A DNA stretch of 41,056 nucleotides, taken from NCBI GenBank assembly GCA_905182785.1, contig CAJJDF010000018.1, positions 1 through 41,056 on the forward strand, read 5' to 3'. The position numbers and the translations under genes were made by a program. Positions within the stretch are counted from its first letter, which is position 1. Every line of letters begins with the position of its first letter. The stretch comes from an uncultured Flavobacteriales bacterium. Lineage in GTDB: Bacteria; Bacteroidota; Bacteroidia; Flavobacteriales_D; CAJJDF01. The notes beneath the pieces are model-generated. The model saw only the letters and a list, made by a program, of their open reading frames with translations, was not told the origin of the DNA and did no database searches. Positions 28,349 through 36,599 of the stretch are shown piece after piece.

Positions 28349-28738
28349 TTAATCTAGGTTAAATTTCTTTTTCAGACTTTCAACAATCTCTTCTTCTGTC
28401 ATTTTATTCTTAGCAGTTTTATTCGTTTCAACTAACCAATTGTATTTATTTTGTAAAGTTACAGCCGTTTTGGTATTCTCCCAGTTTATGGTATTATTTG
28501 GGCTGTTTTCTTGCACAATAGCCACAAATTCTTTCACGTATTTCCCTTCGGTCACTTTTTTAGTGAATAATTGAAGCGTCCATTTTGATACGTTTTCAAT
28601 TACAATTTGCTCAGTTCCTTTTTGTCCTACTTTCCAATCTATAGGGTTACCTAATCTTTCTACAGGAATTCTGTAAGAAAAATCTTGGTTAGGAATGGAT
28701 AAGTATAGGATGTCCTCTTTAATGGATTGGTTTATCAT
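28349..28738 (-). CDS. Conserved-looking hypothetical protein (129 aa), intact copy of a partly duplicated gene
   Basis: The start is ATG 28738 (MINQSIKEDILYL). The frame runs on upstream to 28801, but that part is a terminator-like palindrome and is not credible coding sequence. This choice is supported by a second copy of the first 13 codons at 31543-31581, where the corresponding ATG is preserved. The protein is soluble, of mixed charge, with no signal peptide and a Lys-rich helical C-terminus (MTEEEIVESLKKKFNLD). No family is recognised. Its 5' region (to 28862) is a direct repeat of 31542-31650. A 50-bp hairpin-bearing segment present only here separates the gene from its old upstream region, so its expression may have changed. 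Confidence 0.6.
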   Translation of the reverse strand: MINQSIKEDILYLSIPNQDFSYRIPVERLGNPIDWKVGQKGTEQIVIENVSKWTLQLFTKKVTEGKYVKEFVAIVQENSPNNTINWENTKTAVTLQNKYNWLVETNKTAKNKMTEEEIVESLKKKFNLD

Positions 28739-28862
28739 GTTAAAATTATGTGTTATAAAAAAAGGAGAGAACAATTGTTCTCTCCTTTCAAAATTACTCA
28801 TAAAATGTTAGTTTTATTTATAAAGGAGTATATTCCTTTGTTTTGTCGATTTTACTAGCGGT
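28699..28862. repeat. Direct repeat, left copy (5' end of the 129-aa gene plus upstream region)
   Basis: Two blocks match the right copy at 31542-31650: 28701-28755 to 31544-31598 (five mismatches in 55) and 28806-28862 to 31594-31650 (two mismatches in 57). They are interrupted in this copy by the 50-bp segment 28756-28805. Both copies have the same orientation and flank the T9SS protein and TPR regulator genes. Confidence 0.85.
28756..28805 (-). terminator. Hairpin-bearing insert, terminator-like on the minus strand
   Basis: A perfect 28-bp palindrome (28761-28788, centre CAATTG) is followed on the minus strand by seven T. It is absent from the second copy of this region and is flanked on both sides by TGTTA (28751-28755 and 28806-28810). 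It would stop transcripts from the T9SS gene, but it also lies between the 129-aa gene and the upstream region conserved in both copies. Confidence 0.7.
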
Positions 28863-28908
28863 TTGATTAAACTGTGTTTTAATGCAGTTTAGGTATTGTT
28901 AACAAACG

Positions 28909-29595
28909 TTATTTTTTGTAAACCTTTATTTTTACGATATCATTATTTTGGTTAAAAACTCTCATGTGATAGATGCCAGATGGATAATCACCAATATTTA
29001 ATGTATATGTTTTGGAATTTAAATCCTGTTCAAATATGAGCCTACCTGTCATATTAAATAGTTCTATTTTTAAAATTTGACCTTCCTTTAAGCTTATATT
29101 TACTAAATCATTTGATGGGTTTGGATATACGCTTGCGGTGAAAGGTTCTATATCACCAATGTTTAATGTATTTGTTACATCTACACCCACATTGCCATGG
29201 AGAAATTCCCACCTTCCAATAAAAGTACCTGGAATCGGTTCGGTTACTTCCCAATACAATTGATCTTCTATTAAACATGCAATCCCAGCGGAATCATTGG
29301 TCAAAAGCGCAGTAACATTCATTGTATCGGTAACAAGAATATTATGATAAAACAAAAAATCACTGTTATTAATTAAAGAATCATCAGCAACAATATTACC
29401 TTGAGAATCTGTAATTTTCCAAACAATAATATTTTCACTTTGTGGCCAAGTTAAATAATTTCCGGGATGATATAATTTAATCAAACCAGTATCAGAGACA
29501 TTGACAACTAAGTTCATCATGCCACAACTGACTTGTGCTTGAGTTATTTGGGTTAGCCCTAAGCCAACAATTAGTGTAAATAAAAATTTCTTCAT
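28909..29595 (-). CDS. Secreted protein with type IX secretion C-terminal sorting domain
   Basis: The start is ATG 29595, giving a signal peptide (MKKFLFTLIVGLGLTQITQAQ) cleaved after about residue 20; the frame extends upstream but without coding character. The mature protein has an Ig-like beta domain of about 125 residues that is not assigned to a family, and then a T9SS type A sorting domain (about 150-228) with the motifs VYPNPSNDLVNI, LFNMTGRLI and YPSGIYHMRV. It would be exported by Sec and then by the Por system across the outer membrane. A consensus promoter precedes it, and the TPR/HTH regulator gene lies 102 bp upstream on the same strand, which suggests local regulation. Confidence 0.85.
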   Translation of the reverse strand: MKKFLFTLIVGLGLTQITQAQVSCGMMNLVVNVSDTGLIKLYHPGNYLTWPQSENIIVWKITDSQGNIVADDSLINNSDFLFYHNILVTDTMNVTALLTNDSAGIACLIEDQLYWEVTEPIPGTFIGRWEFLHGNVGVDVTNTLNIGDIEPFTASVYPNPSNDLVNISLKEGQILKIELFNMTGRLIFEQDLNSKTYTLNIGDYPSGIYHMRVFNQNNDIVKIKVYKK

Positions 29596-29621
29596 AATAT
29601 TAGTTTTTGTTTTATAATTAC

Positions 29622-29668
29622 CAAATATAATACAGTAGCTCATTTCAATATTCACGCCTAGCCGTGAA
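29622..29668 (-). promoter_or_regulatory. Promoter and upstream dyad of the T9SS protein gene
   Basis: On the minus strand TATATTTG (29622-29629) is a perfect -7 box. TTG at 29646-29648 is a -33 candidate, although the 16-bp spacer is shorter than usual. Directly upstream, TTCACG-CCTAGC-CGTGAA (29651-29668) is a 6-bp dyad placed where an activator such as the neighbouring HTH protein could bind. Confidence 0.5.
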
Positions 29669-29697
29669 ATCCTTATTATCACGTGCACAAGTGATTT

Positions 29698-31317
29698 TTA
29701 AATGCTTATAGTAGGGTCATTTGATGTCTTAATTGCTTTTAACAATAATGAAATTTTCTTGTATTTAGATTCTTTTATTTCAAAGTATTCATACATTCTT
29801 CGTAATGATGAGCCTATTCCATCAATACTCATAAAAGCTTTTTCAGCTATTTCTTTATTTGTAATTACAGGATCATCAAGCAGTATGTTTAGGACCTTCC
29901 AATCCGTTTCATTTAACTTTTTATCGATATGTCTTTCAATGCTGGTTCGATTTAGCTGAAAGCTATTACCCGTAAATAAAATAGAGGAAGTTTCTACAGA
30001 TTTTAAACGTTCAATTTCATCCAGTAAATATTCTTGCTGAATTTGATTTTTCTTGATTTGAAAACGGTAGTAGAAAAATAAAATGAGGATAATTATCGCA
30101 CCAATCAGAATAAGAGAATAAATCAATCTCAATTGTTTCAATTTTAATTGTGCTTCATTTTTTTCGGCCTCTAATCTATTATCAAATAGCTTTGCATTGT
30201 AGTCGGATTTTAACACTTCTTTAACAATTACAGTCTTATTTTTCTCTATTCGAACACTATCTGCATAAAGCAAATATTGCTCATTCATTTCCAGTGCTAG
30301 TCCGTATTTTTCTTGTTTTTTGTAGCATTTATACAAGAGTTGAAACAAAGAAGATTTTTGGGATTTGTCATTTCCATTTAGGATTTGCTTTTTTACATCC
30401 TCTGCAATGCTATGAGCCTGTTCTAAATCAGTATCTAAAATCAGGTTAGCTTTAATTAGTTTCGAAGAAGTTATTTTGTCATCATTGCCTATTTCAGTGA
30501 GGATTTTCAACCCCTCTTCAACCATTAAAATAGCGCTGTCCAGCTTTCCGATATCCTCATAAAATACCGCCATATTCTGATAATAAATTGGAAGGTAATA
30601 CAAATCGTTTTTTGCTTTTAAAATTGGGTATGCTTTCTTAAAATGCTCTCTAGCGATTATAACGCGTCCAGTTCTGGTATAAATGATAGCCATATTTAAC
30701 CAAAGAAACCCCGATTTTTCTTCCGCTCCTTCTTCCGTATAAATATTCATAGCCTCTTTATAGTTGGGTAAGGCTAATTCATATAACTCTATGGATTGGT
30801 AAATACCTGCAATGTTGTTTAGAACATCGGCCACCAACAAGTTATTTTTTTGTTCTTTAAATAGGACTAAGGCTTCTGTGTAGTAATGAATAGCAGATTG
30901 GTAGTCTCCTTGGTCTTGTAATAGCGCGGCAATATTATTCTTTGTAGAAGCTATTCCATTGAAATTATTCAATTCAGTATAAATGGGTAATATTTCTTGA
31001 AGTAAAGAATTTACGCTATCTAAATCATAGCCGAGCATATGAAAAACAATTGCTTTCTCATTTATTGCTAGGGCTTCTTCTTTACGATTCCCAACTTGTT
31101 TGGCCAATTGGTAATGAAATTTAGAAAGTTTTAAAGAACTATCTGGGATACTGTGCGTGTTATTCACATAGAAATCCATAATAGCCTGAAAACGAATCGT
31201 ATCTGCTTGGGATTCATTTTCCCAAATAATTCTTAGTGAGTCGGCTCGACTTTGGGAATAAGTCAATGATATGCTCGCCAAGAGTAGAAAGATTATTATG
31301 AGTTTTGTATTTTTCAA
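29698..31317 (-). CDS. TPR - transmembrane - LuxR-like HTH regulator
   Basis: This 539-residue protein has a signal peptide (MKNTKLIIIFLLLASISLTYS), about five to six TPR repeats (about 60-350, for example NNIAALLQDQGDYQSAIHYY), a coiled linker, one membrane helix (about 397-418), and a cytoplasmic tail ending in a helix-turn-helix (about 468-530, with ITNKEIAEKAFMSIDGIGSSLRRM). This architecture is a Bacteroidota type of one-component membrane regulator: periplasmic TPRs sense a signal or partner and the cytoplasmic HTH acts on DNA. The start is TTG 31317; there is no ATG nearby. The partner is probably the secreted T9SS protein encoded 102 bp downstream. The pair is bracketed by direct repeats. 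Confidence 0.85.
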   Translation of the reverse strand: MKNTKLIIIFLLLASISLTYSQSRADSLRIIWENESQADTIRFQAIMDFYVNNTHSIPDSSLKLSKFHYQLAKQVGNRKEEALAINEKAIVFHMLGYDLDSVNSLLQEILPIYTELNNFNGIASTKNNIAALLQDQGDYQSAIHYYTEALVLFKEQKNNLLVADVLNNIAGIYQSIELYELALPNYKEAMNIYTEEGAEEKSGFLWLNMAIIYTRTGRVIIAREHFKKAYPILKAKNDLYYLPIYYQNMAVFYEDIGKLDSAILMVEEGLKILTEIGNDDKITSSKLIKANLILDTDLEQAHSIAEDVKKQILNGNDKSQKSSLFQLLYKCYKKQEKYGLALEMNEQYLLYADSVRIEKNKTVIVKEVLKSDYNAKLFDNRLEAEKNEAQLKLKQLRLIYSLILIGAIIILILFFYYRFQIKKNQIQQEYLLDEIERLKSVETSSILFTGNSFQLNRTSIERHIDKKLNETDWKVLNILLDDPVITNKEIAEKAFMSIDGIGSSLRRMYEYFEIKESKYKKISLLLKAIKTSNDPTISI

Positions 31318-31416
31318 ATTGATTTTTTTAATGGTTGCTAACAGTTAGTGTAAGAGTAGTAGCAGATTAAAACACGCTCACTTTAGGATACTAAGATACT
31401 TAATTAAATGCAAAAA

Positions 31417-31440
31417 CGGTTTAGATTAAAACCTAAACCG
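31417..31440 (-). terminator. Intrinsic terminator after the gene remnant
   Basis: CGGTTTAG (31417-31424) pairs with CTAAACCG (31433-31440), and five T follow on the minus strand. It lies 43 bp beyond the stop codon of the 32-codon remnant and would insulate the TPR gene from transcripts coming through it. Confidence 0.7.
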
Positions 31441-31482
31441 CTATTACTTGTTTTTGTCACAGTTCTTTGTTAGAGACAGTTA

Positions 31483-31581
31483 TTATTCCTTACTCCTTTG
31501 GTAATAAGTCACAATACTGGCCTTAGCTATTGTATTATTCCATAAGTATAAGGTGTCCTCTTTAATGGATTGGTTTACCAT
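31483..31581 (-). pseudogene. Truncated second copy of the 129-aa hypothetical gene (5' end only)
   Basis: The reading frame MVNQSIKEDTLYL... (32 codons, ATG 31581 to TAA 31483) matches the first 13 codons of the gene at 28349-28738 (MINQSIKEDILYL) in protein and DNA. After that the two are unrelated. The upstream sequence is duplicated too. It is best read as a remnant left when the TPR/T9SS segment or another sequence replaced the rest of the gene, although expression of a 32-residue peptide cannot be excluded. Confidence 0.65.
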
Positions 31582-31650
31582 GGTAAAATTAGGTGTTAGT
31601 TTTATTTATAAAGAAGGATATTCCTTTGTTTTGTCGATTTTACTAGCGGT
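31542..31650. repeat. Direct repeat, right copy
   Basis: This is the counterpart of 28699-28862 without the 50-bp hairpin segment. Identity ends abruptly at both sides: at codon 13 of the gene on the left, and after ACTAGCGGTT on the right. In this copy the GGTT starts the 64-nt structured element. Confidence 0.85.
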
Positions 31651-31711
31651 TAGTATAGGGCAAGTAGGGCAGTTAAAATCAATTAAATTTCAAGTTTGCT
31701 CTTAGCCAAAT
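31648..31711. repeat. Structured 64-nt element upstream of marC (element B)
   Basis: It aligns without gaps to 32513-32576 over 64 nt (43 identities by eye, with 22 of the last 24 positions identical). Both start with GGTT, share GTAGGG near position 17 and end with CTTAGCCAAAT. Together they bracket marC as direct repeats. Confidence 0.65.
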
Positions 31712-31753
31712 TTTTAATTTATTTGAATAGACAAGTAAAATTGAAAATTTGGC
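31705..31753. repeat. Long inverted repeat before marC
   Basis: GCCAAATTTTTAATTT (31705-31720) pairs with AAATTGAAAATTTGGC (31738-31753) over 16 positions with one T-G pair and a 17-nt loop. The left arm begins inside element B. There is no T-run, so it is not an ordinary terminator. Confidence 0.75.
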
Positions 31754-31884
31754 GGGATTTGTAAAATGTATTGAACTTTTTTTTAAGTAACAAACCCTTA
31801 TTATTTCACTCCGTTTTTTAATATAAAATTCACATAGATTTCATTTAAAAAAAGTCAAAAACATTAATCTTTGCAATAAAAAAA

Positions 31885-32511
31885 ATGGAATTATTTATAC
31901 TGATTTTTGCAGCATTATTCTCTGTTATGAATCCTTTTGGCACAGTACCTGTATTTGTAGGTTTAACAGAAGAAAAAAATAGGTTGGAGCGGAATAAAAT
32001 AGCATTTTGGACATCCTTAAATGTATTAATAATATTACTTATCTCATTTTTTGCTGGAAAGTACATCTTATTATTCTTTGGAATTACATTGAATTCGCTA
32101 AAAATTGCAGGAGGACTAATTATTGTTTCATCAGGTTTTGCTTTGTTGACGGGAGATTTTAACAAGCACAAAGGGATAAAAAAAGAGAAAGTAAAAACAG
32201 ATATTGAAACTCGATCTGATATTTCATTAACTCCTTTAGCAATGCCTATGATAGCTGGCCCAGGAACTATGTCATTATTAATAACTTATAATCAAGAGTC
32301 TGAAGGATTGAATAGTATGTTAATTATAAGTGGAGCAATTGTATTATCTACAATATGTATATATTTAATATTGAAAAGTTCATTTTATATTGTCAAAATA
32401 CTTGGAGCTTCTGGAATAAATGCACTATCAAGAATTATTGGTTTCATTGTTATTGCAATTGGTGTAGAATTTATTATTTCAGCAGTTGTTAGTATTTTTA
32501 ATATTGCCTAA
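31885..32511 (+). CDS. MarC family membrane protein
   Basis: This 208-residue protein has six hydrophobic helices and the MarC/UPF0056 signatures: FSVMNPFGTVPVFVGLT at the N-terminus, a GGLIIVSSGFALL helix, PLAMPMIAGPGTMS in the middle and SRIIGFIVIAIGVEFI at the end. It is an inner-membrane protein; despite its name, its transport substrate is unknown. It may have its own promoter (AATCTTTG at 31866-31873). The stop codon lies inside GCCTAAC, the start of a structured repeat that also occurs upstream in part, so this gene looks like a self-contained cassette. Confidence 0.9.
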   Translation: MELFILIFAALFSVMNPFGTVPVFVGLTEEKNRLERNKIAFWTSLNVLIILLISFFAGKYILLFFGITLNSLKIAGGLIIVSSGFALLTGDFNKHKGIKKEKVKTDIETRSDISLTPLAMPMIAGPGTMSLLITYNQESEGLNSMLIISGAIVLSTICIYLILKSSFYIVKILGASGINALSRIIGFIVIAIGVEFIISAVVSIFNIA

Positions 32512-32576
32512 CGGTTGGCTAAGAAATCGTAGGGGAGTTTGAAACTCTACCCTTTCAAGTTAGCACTTAGCCAAAT
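32506..32576. repeat. Structured 71-nt element at the marC stop codon (element A, attC-like)
   Basis: It starts with GCCTAAC (32506-32512), which overlaps the marC TAA, and ends with CTTAGCCAAAT. TTGGCTAAG (32515-32523) pairs with CTTAGCCAA (32566-32574), and an inner palindrome GAGTTT-G-AAACTC lies at 32535-32547. GTTAGC (32559-32564) partly complements GCCTAAC. This nested dyad resembles an integron attC site, but the second core does not match GTTRRRY. The stop codon of the next, opposite gene lies in the same element. Confidence 0.55.
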
Positions 32577-32751
32577 CAAATGTCTTTATTGTTAATTTAC
32601 TTTCAATTCTTAATATGTTTACCCAATCTTCTAAATCGATATTCCATTTAATTATTTTAGTGAAATTGTCTAACACTTCTTGTAAACGGTTAACATTTTC
32701 AGGAGAAGTACTTGTCTTATAAACAGATATTATTGTTCTTTCTGAATTCAT
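32560..32751 (-). CDS. Small HMA-like (ferredoxin-fold) protein without metal-binding cysteines
   Basis: The start is ATG 32751, giving 63 residues (MNSERTIISVYKTS...). An in-frame ATG at 32775 lies inside the upstream gene. The pattern beta-alpha-beta-beta (ISVYKT, NVNRLQEVLDNF, WNIDLEDWVNILRIES) is like small heavy-metal-associated-domain proteins of Bacteroidota, but there is no CxxC and the only Cys is the last residue, so copper-chaperone activity is unlikely. It follows the SRPBCC gene with a 7-bp gap and is likely co-transcribed with it. Its stop codon lies inside element A. The function is unknown. Confidence 0.55.
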   Translation of the reverse strand: MNSERTIISVYKTSTSPENVNRLQEVLDNFTKIIKWNIDLEDWVNILRIESKLTIKTFDLAKC

Positions 32752-32758
32752 TTTAACT

Positions 32759-33349
32759 TCATTTAGATACTTCACAATACTTTTTAAATGCAGTATTCAT
32801 TGTGTTGTATTTGACTACCATATTTTCTCTCATTGCTGGCTTCATTACTAAACCTTTCATAAGTCCGCTCATTTTTTCATAGTTAATAAATCGAGTTTTT
32901 TTTCCGGCATCAATGGATTCAAAAATATGAACGTGTTCCGCTTTCAATAATCCCCAATTAACTCCCCAAAAAAATACTTCAGGACTATTTTCGTAAACTT
33001 TGGGGTTAACTGGAGCGGGTGCAGGGTCGTTTTTTCGTCCAAAATTAATAACTAAATCTAACGTTGGTTTAGTTGTTAAATCATTTATATTTCCTTTTTT
33101 TACTGATATTTTTGGAAATACAGTGTTCCAATCACTCCATTTTTTGAAATCTAAGAATTTTGCTCTTACTACTTCTGGAGAGGCGTTAATAATAATTTCT
33201 GTAAATGCAGTAGTTTTACCAGTTACTTCAATGGCTTGCTTAATGTAAGATGTTTTTTTACTCATTTTTGTTTTCTGATTTGTGGTGTTTTGTGCTATAG
33301 TTGATAGACCGAGTACACTTATTAATAATGTTGTAATTGCTAACTTCAT
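32759..33349 (-). CDS. Secreted or periplasmic SRPBCC-domain protein
   Basis: This 196-residue protein has a signal peptide (MKLAITTLLISVLGLSTIAQ). After it comes a START/Bet v1-like SRPBCC domain: EIIINASPEVVRAKFLDFKKWSDWNTVFPKI at its N-terminus and a C-terminal long-helix segment (NMVVKYNTMNTAFKKYC). Such domains bind hydrophobic ligands in a deep cavity; the ligand is not known. Members with a signal peptide are less common than cytoplasmic ones. An internal Met (MSKKTSYIKQ, residue 29) could give a cytoplasmic form. A CACCTTTG -7-like box (33373-33380) precedes the gene, which leads the two-gene unit with the small HMA-like protein. Confidence 0.75.
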   Translation of the reverse strand: MKLAITTLLISVLGLSTIAQNTTNQKTKMSKKTSYIKQAIEVTGKTTAFTEIIINASPEVVRAKFLDFKKWSDWNTVFPKISVKKGNINDLTTKPTLDLVINFGRKNDPAPAPVNPKVYENSPEVFFWGVNWGLLKAEHVHIFESIDAGKKTRFINYEKMSGLMKGLVMKPAMRENMVVKYNTMNTAFKKYCEVSK

Positions 33350-33490: not shown

Positions 33491-33560
33491 GCCTAACAAT
33501 GGAATATAGTTAACAGTTAACTATATATCTACTATGTATTTTGTTTGTTGTTATCCAAAT
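33491..33560. repeat. Third GCCTAAC...CCAAAT element (element C) with perfect 23-bp palindrome
   Basis: It begins with GCCTAAC (33491-33497), as element A does, and ends with ATCCAAAT after 70 nt (A: 71 nt). Inside, ATATAGTTAAC and GTTAACTATAT form a perfect 11-bp inverted repeat around one A (33504-33526). Only the ends and the length resemble A, so the kinship is tentative. Confidence 0.4.
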
Positions 33561-33730
33561 GTAATGAATCTAGAGGATTATTTATGTTAATTAACTCATT
33601 AATTTATAAGTGAGTATATGTTTCTGTAGTTTTGGAGCTGGAATAGGTTATTGCTTCTTTAAAACTATTTTATAGTAATAGTTGTTATTTGACTTAACTC
33701 ATTCCCTAACCAGAAAAACAATTCCCCAAA

Positions 33731-33785: not shown

Positions 33786-36599
33786 TTACTTACTCAATAA
33801 CATATTTCTTTCAGAATATATTTTTCTAAAGAATTTATCTTTCAAGTCATCAATGAAGTAAATTGCTTCTCCAGTCGATTTCATTTCTGGGCCAAGTTCT
33901 TTGGCAACTTCAGGGAATTTCTCGTAAGAAAACACTGGAATTTTAATTGCGTATCCTCCTTTCTTTGGGTTAAAGTTAAACTCACTCAATTTTGCTCCCA
34001 ACATTACTTTAGTTGCATAATTTACATACGGTTCGTCATAGGCTTTTGCAATAAACGGAACTGTACGAGATGCTCTTGGGTTTGCTTCAATGATGTATAC
34101 TTCGTCATCTTTTATTGCAAACTGGATGTTTATTAATCCAACTGTATTCAATGCGAGAGCAATTTTCTTAGTGTACTCAGCCATTTTTGTAAGGATTAAA
34201 TCTCCCAAGTTATAAGGCGGTAACAAAGCATATGAATCTCCAGAGTGAATTCCTGCAGGCTCTATGTGTTGCATCATTCCAATGATGTATACATTTTCTC
34301 CGTCACAAATTGCATCTGCTTCGGCTTCAATGGCTCCACCAAGAAAGTGATCGACTAAGATTTGGTTATTTGGCATATCCCTTAAGATATCTACCACATG
34401 CGTTTCCAATTCTTGCTCGTTTATTACAATCTTCATTTTTTGTCCTCCCAATACGTAAGAAGGTCTTACCAATAATGGAAATCCTAATTCTTTAGATATT
34501 TCTATGGCTTGTTCAGCACTTTCTACCACACCAAATTTTGGGTAAGGAATGTTCAATTCTTCAAGCTTGTTAGAGAATCTTCCTCTGTCTTCAGCCAAAT
34601 CTAGAGAATCGAATCCAGAACCAATGATCTTAATTCCGTGTTTTTCTAGTTTTTCAGCCAATTTAAGAGCCGTTTGCCCTCCCAGTTGCACAATTACTCC
34701 TTCAGGTTTTTCGTGACGTATAATGTCATAAATATGCTCCCAGAATACGGGTTCAAAATATAATTTATCTGCCGTATCAAAATCTGTAGAAACAGTTTCT
34801 GGATTACAGTTTATCATAATGGTTTCGTAGCCCATTTCTTTGGCTGCAAATATTCCGTGTACACAACAGTAATCAAATTCTATTCCTTGTCCAATTCTGT
34901 TTGGCCCAGATCCTAAGACAATAATTTTCTTTTTATCAGAAACTACAGACTCGTTCTCCATAGCAAACGTAGAGTAGTAGTAAGGTGTTTGTGCTTTAAA
35001 CTCTGCAGCACACGTGTCTACTAATTTATAAACTCTATTGATGTTAAATTCTTCTCTTTTAGAGTAAATTTCACTCTCCCAACATTTTAATAAGTGAGCA
35101 ACTTGTCTATCTGCGTATCCTTTTTGTTTGGCTTCAAATAATAATTCTTTAGGAATATCAGCCAAGCTATATTTCTCAATTCTTTTTTCTGTATGGATTA
35201 AATCTTCGATTTGCCTCAAGAACCAATCGTCAATTTTTGTAAGTTCTTTAATGGTTTTAAAAGGAATTCCTAGTTTTATTGCATCATACACATGGAATAA
35301 TCTATCCCAACTTGCGTGTTTCAAACTGTGTAATAATTTCTCCTGGTTTCTTTCTTCTTTTCCATCAGCCCCCAATCCGTTTCTTCCAATCTCTAGTGAT
35401 TGACAAGCTTTTTGTAAGGCTTCTTGAAACGATCCACCAATTGCCATTACTTCTCCTACCGATTTCATTTGAAGACCTAATTCACGGTTAGCTCCTTTAA
35501 ACTTATCAAAGTTCCATCTAGGAATTTTTACGATTACGTAATCCAAAGTTGGCTCGAATAAGGCAGAAGTATTTTTTGTAATCTGATTATCCAATTCATC
35601 TAAGGTGTAACCAATAGCTAATTTAGAAGCAATTTTTGCAATAGGATATCCAGTGGCTTTAGACGCTAAAGCAGAAGAACGAGAAACCCTTGGGTTGATT
35701 TCAATGGCAATAACATCTTCATTTTCATCTGGAGAAACAGCAAACTGTACGTTACATCCTCCAGCGAAGTTTCCAATCGAGCGCATCATAAGAATTGCCA
35801 TATCACGCATTTTTTGGAATGTCGTATCTGACAATGTCATAGCAGGTGCAACCGTAATTGAGTCACCCGTGTGAATTCCCATTGGATCGAAATTTTCAAT
35901 CGAACAGATAATAACTACGTTATCATTTGCATCACGCAAAAGTTCCAACTCGAACTCTTTCCAACCGAGTAATGCCTTATCGATCATTACTTCGTGAATC
36001 GGAGATATTTTTAATCCGTTTTCCAACAAGTTGTCAAACTCTTTTGGACTATGAACAATTGCTGCACCTGCACCCCCTAAAGTATAAGATGCTCGAACAC
36101 AAAGTGGAAATCCGAATTCTTGAGCAATTTCTTTTCCTTGTAAGAATGACTTTGCAGGCTTTTGTGGAGCCATTGGAACTCCAATTTTATCCATTAAAAT
36201 TCTAAATGCATCCCTATTTTCAGTGACTTCAATAGCATCAATATCTACTCCAACAATATCTACTCCATATTCATCCCATATTCCTAGTTCTTTACATTTG
36301 ATACATAAGTTCAAAGCAGTTTGTCCACCCATTGTTGGCAATACAGCATCAATGTTGTGGTTCTTCAGAATTTCTTCTACGTATTCAGGTTCTAATGGTT
36401 TAAGATAAATATTATCAGCTACCATCTTGTCTGTCATAATTGTTGCAGGGTTAGAATTGATTAGGGTAACTTCAATTCCTTCCTCTCTTAATGACCTAGC
36501 TGCTTGTGATCCGGCATAGTCAAATTCACATGCTTGCCCAATTACAATAGGTCCACTACCTATTATAAGAACTGATTTTATATCCGTATTTCTTGGCAT
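33786..36599 (-). CDS. carB: Carbamoyl-phosphate synthase large subunit, lacking the C-terminal allosteric domain
   Basis: This 937-residue protein has the duplicated CarB architecture. The first half contains a pre-ATP-grasp (IGSGPIVIGQACEFDYAG) and ATP-grasp for carboxyphosphate (EINPRVSRSSALASKATGYP). An oligomerisation segment follows (about 400-540), then a second pre-ATP-grasp (LGSGPNRIGQGIEFDYCCVH) and ATP-grasp for carbamate phosphorylation (EANPRASRTVPFIAKA). The protein ends after this, at about the point where E. coli CarB (about 1070 residues) continues with the MGS-like allosteric domain. With CarA it makes carbamoyl phosphate for arginine and pyrimidine synthesis in the cytoplasm. 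carA is not in the window. A strong terminator follows, so the end is genuine rather than a frameshift. Confidence 0.96.
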   Translation of the reverse strand: MPRNTDIKSVLIIGSGPIVIGQACEFDYAGSQAARSLREEGIEVTLINSNPATIMTDKMVADNIYLKPLEPEYVEEILKNHNIDAVLPTMGGQTALNLCIKCKELGIWDEYGVDIVGVDIDAIEVTENRDAFRILMDKIGVPMAPQKPAKSFLQGKEIAQEFGFPLCVRASYTLGGAGAAIVHSPKEFDNLLENGLKISPIHEVMIDKALLGWKEFELELLRDANDNVVIICSIENFDPMGIHTGDSITVAPAMTLSDTTFQKMRDMAILMMRSIGNFAGGCNVQFAVSPDENEDVIAIEINPRVSRSSALASKATGYPIAKIASKLAIGYTLDELDNQITKNTSALFEPTLDYVIVKIPRWNFDKFKGANRELGLQMKSVGEVMAIGGSFQEALQKACQSLEIGRNGLGADGKEERNQEKLLHSLKHASWDRLFHVYDAIKLGIPFKTIKELTKIDDWFLRQIEDLIHTEKRIEKYSLADIPKELLFEAKQKGYADRQVAHLLKCWESEIYSKREEFNINRVYKLVDTCAAEFKAQTPYYYSTFAMENESVVSDKKKIIVLGSGPNRIGQGIEFDYCCVHGIFAAKEMGYETIMINCNPETVSTDFDTADKLYFEPVFWEHIYDIIRHEKPEGVIVQLGGQTALKLAEKLEKHGIKIIGSGFDSLDLAEDRGRFSNKLEELNIPYPKFGVVESAEQAIEISKELGFPLLVRPSYVLGGQKMKIVINEQELETHVVDILRDMPNNQILVDHFLGGAIEAEADAICDGENVYIIGMMQHIEPAGIHSGDSYALLPPYNLGDLILTKMAEYTKKIALALNTVGLINIQFAIKDDEVYIIEANPRASRTVPFIAKAYDEPYVNYATKVMLGAKLSEFNFNPKKGGYAIKIPVFSYEKFPEVAKELGPEMKSTGEAIYFIDDLKDKFFRKIYSERNMLLSK

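Follow-up and report, generated by a model that had tools for sequence, protein, structure and literature searches.

Probable remnants of an integron-like cassette system in a Flavobacteriales contig and its relatives across Bacteroidota

The 41,056-nt stretch of DNA analysed here (the window; contig CAJJDF010000018.1 of an uncultured Flavobacteriales bacterium) carries three related repeats, A, B and X, near the membrane-protein gene marC in an island behind carB. These repeats are very probably decayed attC-like sites belonging to an integron-like system of Bacteroidota, and the window is best read as a small relic array that has lost its integrase apart from a probable stub, retains its attI and keeps a few cassettes. 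In related genomes the sequences show arrays, a common orientation of their units, complementarity of cassette ends, units bounded at GTT and a conserved order of integrase, attI and array. No published description of such a system was found in the open-access literature.

In the proposed mechanism, a dedicated tyrosine recombinase encoded at the array head would recognise a palindromic attI immediately after its own stop codon. It would also recognise long imperfect hairpins (attC-like, 123 or 187 nt) behind cassette genes, probably as the folded bottom strand, and would join attI and hairpins at a GTT core. Circles of one gene plus one element could then be inserted, excised and reshuffled as units, with the cassettes expressed from the array head. 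The strand used, the circular intermediate, catalysis by the array recombinase and expression from the array head are the parts of this scheme that we infer from sequence patterns.

Repeats A, B and X

An earlier note on this DNA had described A (32513-32576) and B (31648-31711) as gap-free 64-nt structured repeats that bracket marC in the manner of an integron gene cassette. The alignment is confirmed, with 43/64 positions identical and 22/24 over the last 24 positions; shuffled windows yield no 64-nt match to A better than 31-32/64, and B is the sole other match to A in the real window scoring at least 36/64. GCCTAAC does stand directly before A and overlaps the marC stop (TAA 32509-32511), where A folds as a hairpin by pairing of the arms TTGGCTAAG/CTTAGCCAA. 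The repeats as delimited were real but incomplete: both are pieces of palindromic elements that span ~123 or 187 nt in full, B running to about 31800 and A being truncated, and a third copy, X, is present.

31340 to 31458, minus strand: element X, 123-nt type, core GTT 31342-31340; covariance model E 1.6e-13
31645 to 31800, minus strand: element B, 187-nt type with degenerate ends (GCTAG replacing GTTAG); model positions 17-185, 74 bits
31885 to 32511, plus strand: marC (MarC family membrane protein; PF01914, E 2e-52), antisense to the array
32510 to 32580, minus strand: element A, truncated attC-like element, core GTT 32512-32510 (GTTAGGC); positions 90-168 of the 187-nt element model

The core of X is followed by GTTAGCAACCATT at the start of a 539-residue gene. 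An Rfam scan of the region returned nothing relevant. The earlier note had proposed a covariance search over the whole genome and related genomes, and its reading would have failed had the genome held these two copies alone. A model of the short element type gives 14 matches in the organism's own genome, adjoining unrelated genes; A and B are therefore neither the only two copies nor a local duplication.

Clear copies of the element read TTATACTAACC-GTT-RNNNRY at one end, with a start codon often 5-50 nt further on, and ..YAAC-AATGTATAA at the other, usually just after a stop codon. Across elements the core always begins with GTT and nearly always continues with A or G before becoming variable (consensus GTTRNNNRYMAT, compared with RYYYAAC / GTTRRRY in integrons). 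Cassette orientation in the window is the minus strand. Read on that strand, the GCCTAAC that overlaps the marC stop becomes the 3' core GTTAGGC, and marC lies antisense to the array; in congener genomes marC is found at other loci. GTTAGGC fits GTTRRRY and marks the start of the next cassette. The suggestion of divergent cassette-type sites is strongly supported by arrays, end complementarity, shuffling and association in relatives with a dedicated recombinase and an attI-like site. The functional orientation is opposite to marC, however, so nothing marks marC as a normally oriented cassette gene.

Cassettes as the unit of movement

Lacinutrix neustonica (NZ_CP113088.1) carries one array of 191 elements, all on one strand, over ~170 kb and a second array of 34. 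Among all fetched loci, consecutive elements share orientation in 94/94 pairs, and the longest open reading frame (ORF) between elements lies in cassette orientation in 79/88 cases.

The first ~10 nt of each cassette are complementary to the 10 nt that immediately precede the element of that cassette. When the 7 nt after the start GTT are set against the reverse-complemented 7 nt that lead up to the end AAC, 57 cassettes agree at 5.16/7 positions, compared with 2.42 ± 0.18 of 7 for shuffled pairs of cassette ends (maximum 3.07 in 10,000 shuffles) and 2.46/7 for the two flanks of one element. Complementarity within the cassette, rather than across the element, is the signature of a circle of gene plus element and not of a mobile repeat. 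In Lacinutrix, 185 of the 195 testable cassettes show at most 1 mismatch of 7. The same genome contains 175 cassette pairs that are at least 95% identical over their full length, 169 of them with a different downstream neighbour. Just beyond GTT, identity within near-identical pairs falls from ~0.97 to ~0.3, and the left end shows a corresponding step; GTT therefore delimits the units in which cassettes move or are duplicated.

Across 42 short elements, 5 of the 14 base pairs of the outer stem have changed on both sides, and two of these 5 are about evenly divided between G-C and A-U types. In 121/127 elements the bottom strand forms the more stable outer stem, the direction of folding preference expected for integron attC sites, which is consistent with recombination as a folded bottom strand but no proof of it.

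Array integrase and attI

Immediately upstream of the start of the Lacinutrix array stands a tyrosine recombinase gene interrupted by frameshifts (L228), and intact relatives of ~375 residues head arrays, co-directionally, in Aquimarina (L210, L278), a Cytophagales metagenome-assembled genome (L095) and a single-contig genome (L270). The earlier note had suggested looking for a tyrosine recombinase gene near other copies; in relatives one is found at array heads. Well-scoring elements near these integrases are downstream and in the same direction. For many integrase copies the contig breaks off on the side of the array, which is what repeats would bring about.

Array integrases consist of an N-terminal extension of ~100 residues, a SAM-like domain and PF00589. 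Their scores against the IntI model TIGR02249 (186-219 bits) fall short of its cut-off of 265, and they have 22 residues where IntI4 has 65, ~43 fewer. The best NCBIfam match is XerA/archaeal Xer (NF040815) and the best solved structures are 4a8e and 5hxy; a predicted structure of modest confidence (mean pLDDT 71.5) gives XerA and IntI4 as best matches. A high-scoring member is encoded in about 35 of the order's 399 genomes, separated from the next group by a gap in score. The recombinase tree contains no true IntI, since L300, annotated on a plasmid as 'integron integrase', has no IntI insertion and could not serve as an IntI reference. A 207-residue recombinase beside a Maribacter element (L225), the first integrase candidate, was set aside as a member of a different recombinase group.

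Directly after the integrase stop stands a palindrome, for example GTGGATAAAGTGCAC-TAG-TGCACTTTATCCAC-TT-GTTAGCAACAAT. Its arms reach at least 9 bp at 17/32 loci, with GTT following in 17/17 of these and none in shuffles. At 16 of 19 main-group loci, the first-cassette start was found again as its reverse complement ~0.4-1.8 kb downstream (at most 1 mismatch in 10, ending AAC), placing the start of the cassette at the attI GTT. Several related recombinases outside the main group have the same palindromic site.

Two further features accompany these recombinases. A small zinc-finger-like gene (~125 residues) lies divergently just upstream of the integrase at 28/41 loci, some of them overlapping, and at 0/18 Xer loci (examples L228:13783-14160, L210:2666-3037 and L095:686-1066); it is possibly a regulator, and no Pfam or NCBIfam family matches it over cut-off. 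Larger recombinases of the same clade (470-580 residues; L174:3813-5483, L056-L062, L072) carry N-terminal repeats with a weak Pfam match to HARP, a branched-DNA-binding domain, which would suit a recombinase acting on folded DNA.

Distribution

In GTDB genomes, at least 116 stretches match a degenerate 25-nt pattern derived from the conserved element end. Those with titles come from Flavobacteriales, Cytophagales, Saprospiria, Bacteroidales and one Balneola, and all listed matches belong to Bacteroidota or Balneola. In an even sample of the phylum, 83/247 genomes have an element at E ≤ 1e-6, which is a lower bound. Many copies beside unrelated genes, which the earlier note had named as support for its proposal, occur in the organism's own genome, and further copies phylum-wide. 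A plasmid search with the element as query gave one weak match only.

Within the Lacinutrix arrays (L289-L299), families of up to 10 near-identical ~460-bp cassettes with no obvious ORF recur along the array. Elements are also carried by IMG/VR contigs called viral (L192, L194, L196), and the three share a neighbouring cassette end, GTTAGGGTGCGTT.

tet(X3) on Acinetobacter plasmids

Querying plasmids with the integrase recovered the truncated recombinase (221 residues) of Acinetobacter tet(X3) plasmids, annotated 'xerD', which falls in the array-integrase clade. In NZ_CP041297.1 (L286:4043-6120) the recombinase gene is followed by GTGGATATATACGCCATTTGGCGTATAGCCAC-TT-GTTATGTGCCAT and then by tet(X3). 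The sequence AAACGGCTACTAAC after tet(X3) resembles a cassette end and is not fully complementary to the start. The junction looks like one between attI and a cassette, with tet(X3) as captured first cassette, and tet(X3) appears at some time in the past to have been inserted in a system of this kind. The xerD-tet(X3) arrangement is already known, and its present movement is ascribed to ISCR2 (PMC8635130). This ISCR2-xerD-tet(X3)-res region resembles the Bacteroidota system in the clade of its recombinase and in the position of tet(X3), with its GTTATGTGCCAT start, right behind an attI palindrome; it differs in that the recombinase is truncated and no attC-like element is present beyond the possible R' end.

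The relic array behind carB

The carB stop is at 33786, and beyond it the minus strand reads ..NELININNPLDSLHLDNNKQNT-stop followed by CATAGTAGATATATAGTTAACTGTTAACTATATTCC-ATT-GTTAGGCACAAG. The features of the island on this side of marC and beyond B are as follows.

33532 to 33600, minus strand: probable 3' stub of the lost array integrase (translation NELININNPLDSLHLDNNKQNT, stop 33532-33534)
33495 to 33526, minus strand: attI-like site, perfect palindrome ATATAGTTAAC-T-GTTAACTATAT (33504-33526), core GTT 33495-33497, then GTTAGGCACAAG
32759 to 33349, minus strand: first cassette gene behind attI, SRPBCC / Polyketide_cyc2, 196 residues (PF10604, E 1e-6)
32560 to 32775, minus strand: 71-residue ORF between the SRPBCC gene and element A, without Pfam match
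31542 to 31651, no strand assigned: duplicated right-hand chromosomal flank (original 28699-28863; 97% over 58 nt, 91% over 57 nt)
29698 to 31317, minus strand: cassette gene candidate, 539-residue protein with tetratricopeptide repeats (TPR) and a winged helix-turn-helix (HTH) (PF13424, PF13412)
28909 to 29688, minus strand: cassette gene candidate, 259-residue protein with a secretion-sorting tail (PF18962)
28857 to 28907, minus strand: mini element M, R' GTTTGTTAAC (28907-28898) plus a short hairpin

No intact integrase stands at the array head in the window, where only the stub precedes attI; the absence of a local integrase, as the earlier note had it, is borne out. The stub resembles the C-terminal ..IKNPLDL and ..QSPLDSLTFE of array integrases and stops immediately ahead of the attI palindrome, the position seen in relatives. 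Being short, it can be called no more than a probable integrase remnant. The palindrome has 11-bp arms and the architecture found behind intact integrases. Behind it follow, in order, the SRPBCC gene, the 71-residue ORF, A, marC (antisense), B, X, the TPR/HTH gene, the sorting-tail protein and M. The R' of M is complementary to the start of the X cassette, GTTAGCAACC, at 8/10 positions, and a short class like M (AACAACACCTAAACTGCATTAAAACGCA) closes the first cassette of locus L242.

The flank duplication (~110 nt) lies between B and X, ~2.8 kb from the original, and includes the start of a 150-residue gene; the island has therefore also been rearranged. In congener G002, carB is followed by the island-closing gene with ~250 nt between them and no cassette material, and in congener G003 (L281; G003:C37) an unrelated gene lies between carB and the 150-residue gene. 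Behind that unrelated gene the final ~120 bp of carB recur as a second copy, which makes the locus look like an insertion hot spot.

Alternative explanations and related systems

Several observations weigh against reading the window as a relic of an integron-like array. Its copies are degraded, A and B having lost their R' ends; marC runs against the array; and the integrase stub spans only 22 codons in a genome with no member of the array-integrase family and a single Phage_integrase gene over cut-off. Absence of the island from G002 fits loss there as well as gain here. In other genomes, no recognisable element lies downstream of the integrase at L263, L268, L269, L271 and L277, although a search for cassette ends does find that of the first cassette at L263 and L269.

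The window might instead hold remnants of an ordinary IntI integron, as in CALINs, which are attC clusters without an integrase. The layout, GTT core, bottom-strand preference and complementary cassette ends are as in integrons, and the core at the marC stop conforms to GTTRRRY. Such an origin is nonetheless improbable: the TIGR02249 cut-off is exceeded in 0/399 genomes of the order, the array-head recombinase scores well below that cut-off, lacks ~43 residues present in IntI4 and runs in the direction of the array, attI is palindromic, and the elements are 123/187 nt long with ~10-nt end complementarity. Less probable still is a mobile repeat, of the miniature inverted-repeat transposable element (MITE) type or the repetitive extragenic palindrome (REP/RAYT) type, inserting between genes without carrying them. 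Palindromic, dispersed elements with conserved ends, an AGTAG motif within those ends and a variable centre would suit it, but it is cassette ends and not element flanks that are related (5.16/7 against 2.46/7), all neighbours share one orientation, whole cassettes with sharp edges recur in place of bare elements, and no empty site lacking only the element and showing a target duplication was seen. The least credible origin is as transcription terminators or a simple local duplication. The hairpin of A does sit at the marC stop and a real duplication exists at 31542-31651; that duplication concerns the flank and not A and B, however, and the ~14 genomic copies beside unrelated genes, the phylum-wide copies, the conserved ends and the copies just upstream of start codons do not agree with either origin.

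The integron-like reading places the system close to integrons (IntI/attI/attC, including sedentary chromosomal integrons and CALINs), with which it shares one-gene cassettes that are arranged head to tail and close with a palindromic element, a GTT core, a cassette start complementary to its own R' end, an integrase and attI at the array head, a bottom-strand folding preference and arrays of up to ~190 cassettes. It differs in an integrase that falls below the IntI cut-off, lacks the insertion, has ~100 additional N-terminal residues and runs with the array; in a perfectly or near-perfectly palindromic attI; in elements of 123 or 187 nt with ~10-nt end complementarity; and in its confinement, as far as searched, to Bacteroidota and Balneola. 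As the integrase fails the IntI test, the system is set beside and not within IntI integrons despite its integron-like sequence behaviour. The earlier suggestion of a divergent or orphan integron type accordingly holds for the sites, which are divergent, and not for descent from an IntI branch. XerA/archaeal Xer proteins (NF040815; 4a8e, 5hxy) are the closest matches to the recombinase, from which the Bacteroidota proteins differ by their N-terminal extension, array-head position and attI palindrome. REP/RAYT sequences, GTAG-tagged palindromes (PMC3733652), are likewise palindromic intergenic repeats with a GTAG motif near their ends; the Bacteroidota elements are much longer, occur in a single orientation and are carried with a gene as one unit.

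Implications

The usual view takes integrons as a single family, with IntI as its defining feature. The system described here is, in our estimation, rather likely to be a second, separately evolved integron: phylum-wide, with its own integrase lineage, palindromic attI, long attC-like hairpins, arrays of up to ~190 cassettes and a donor context for tet(X3), and missed by IntI searches. The IntegronFinder 2.0 survey reported almost no integrons in Bacteroidetes, where earlier only In0 and then one complete integron, in Salinibacter, had been found (PMC9024848). If the present reading is true, a major environmental and gut phylum has a cassette economy of its own, and large reservoirs of mobile genes have been overlooked. 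The way in which a recombinase lacking the IntI insertion deals with folded single-stranded sites would then be open to testing. Through tet(X3) the system would be tied to a gene for last-resort antibiotic resistance, and the adjoining 'xerD' would be accounted for.
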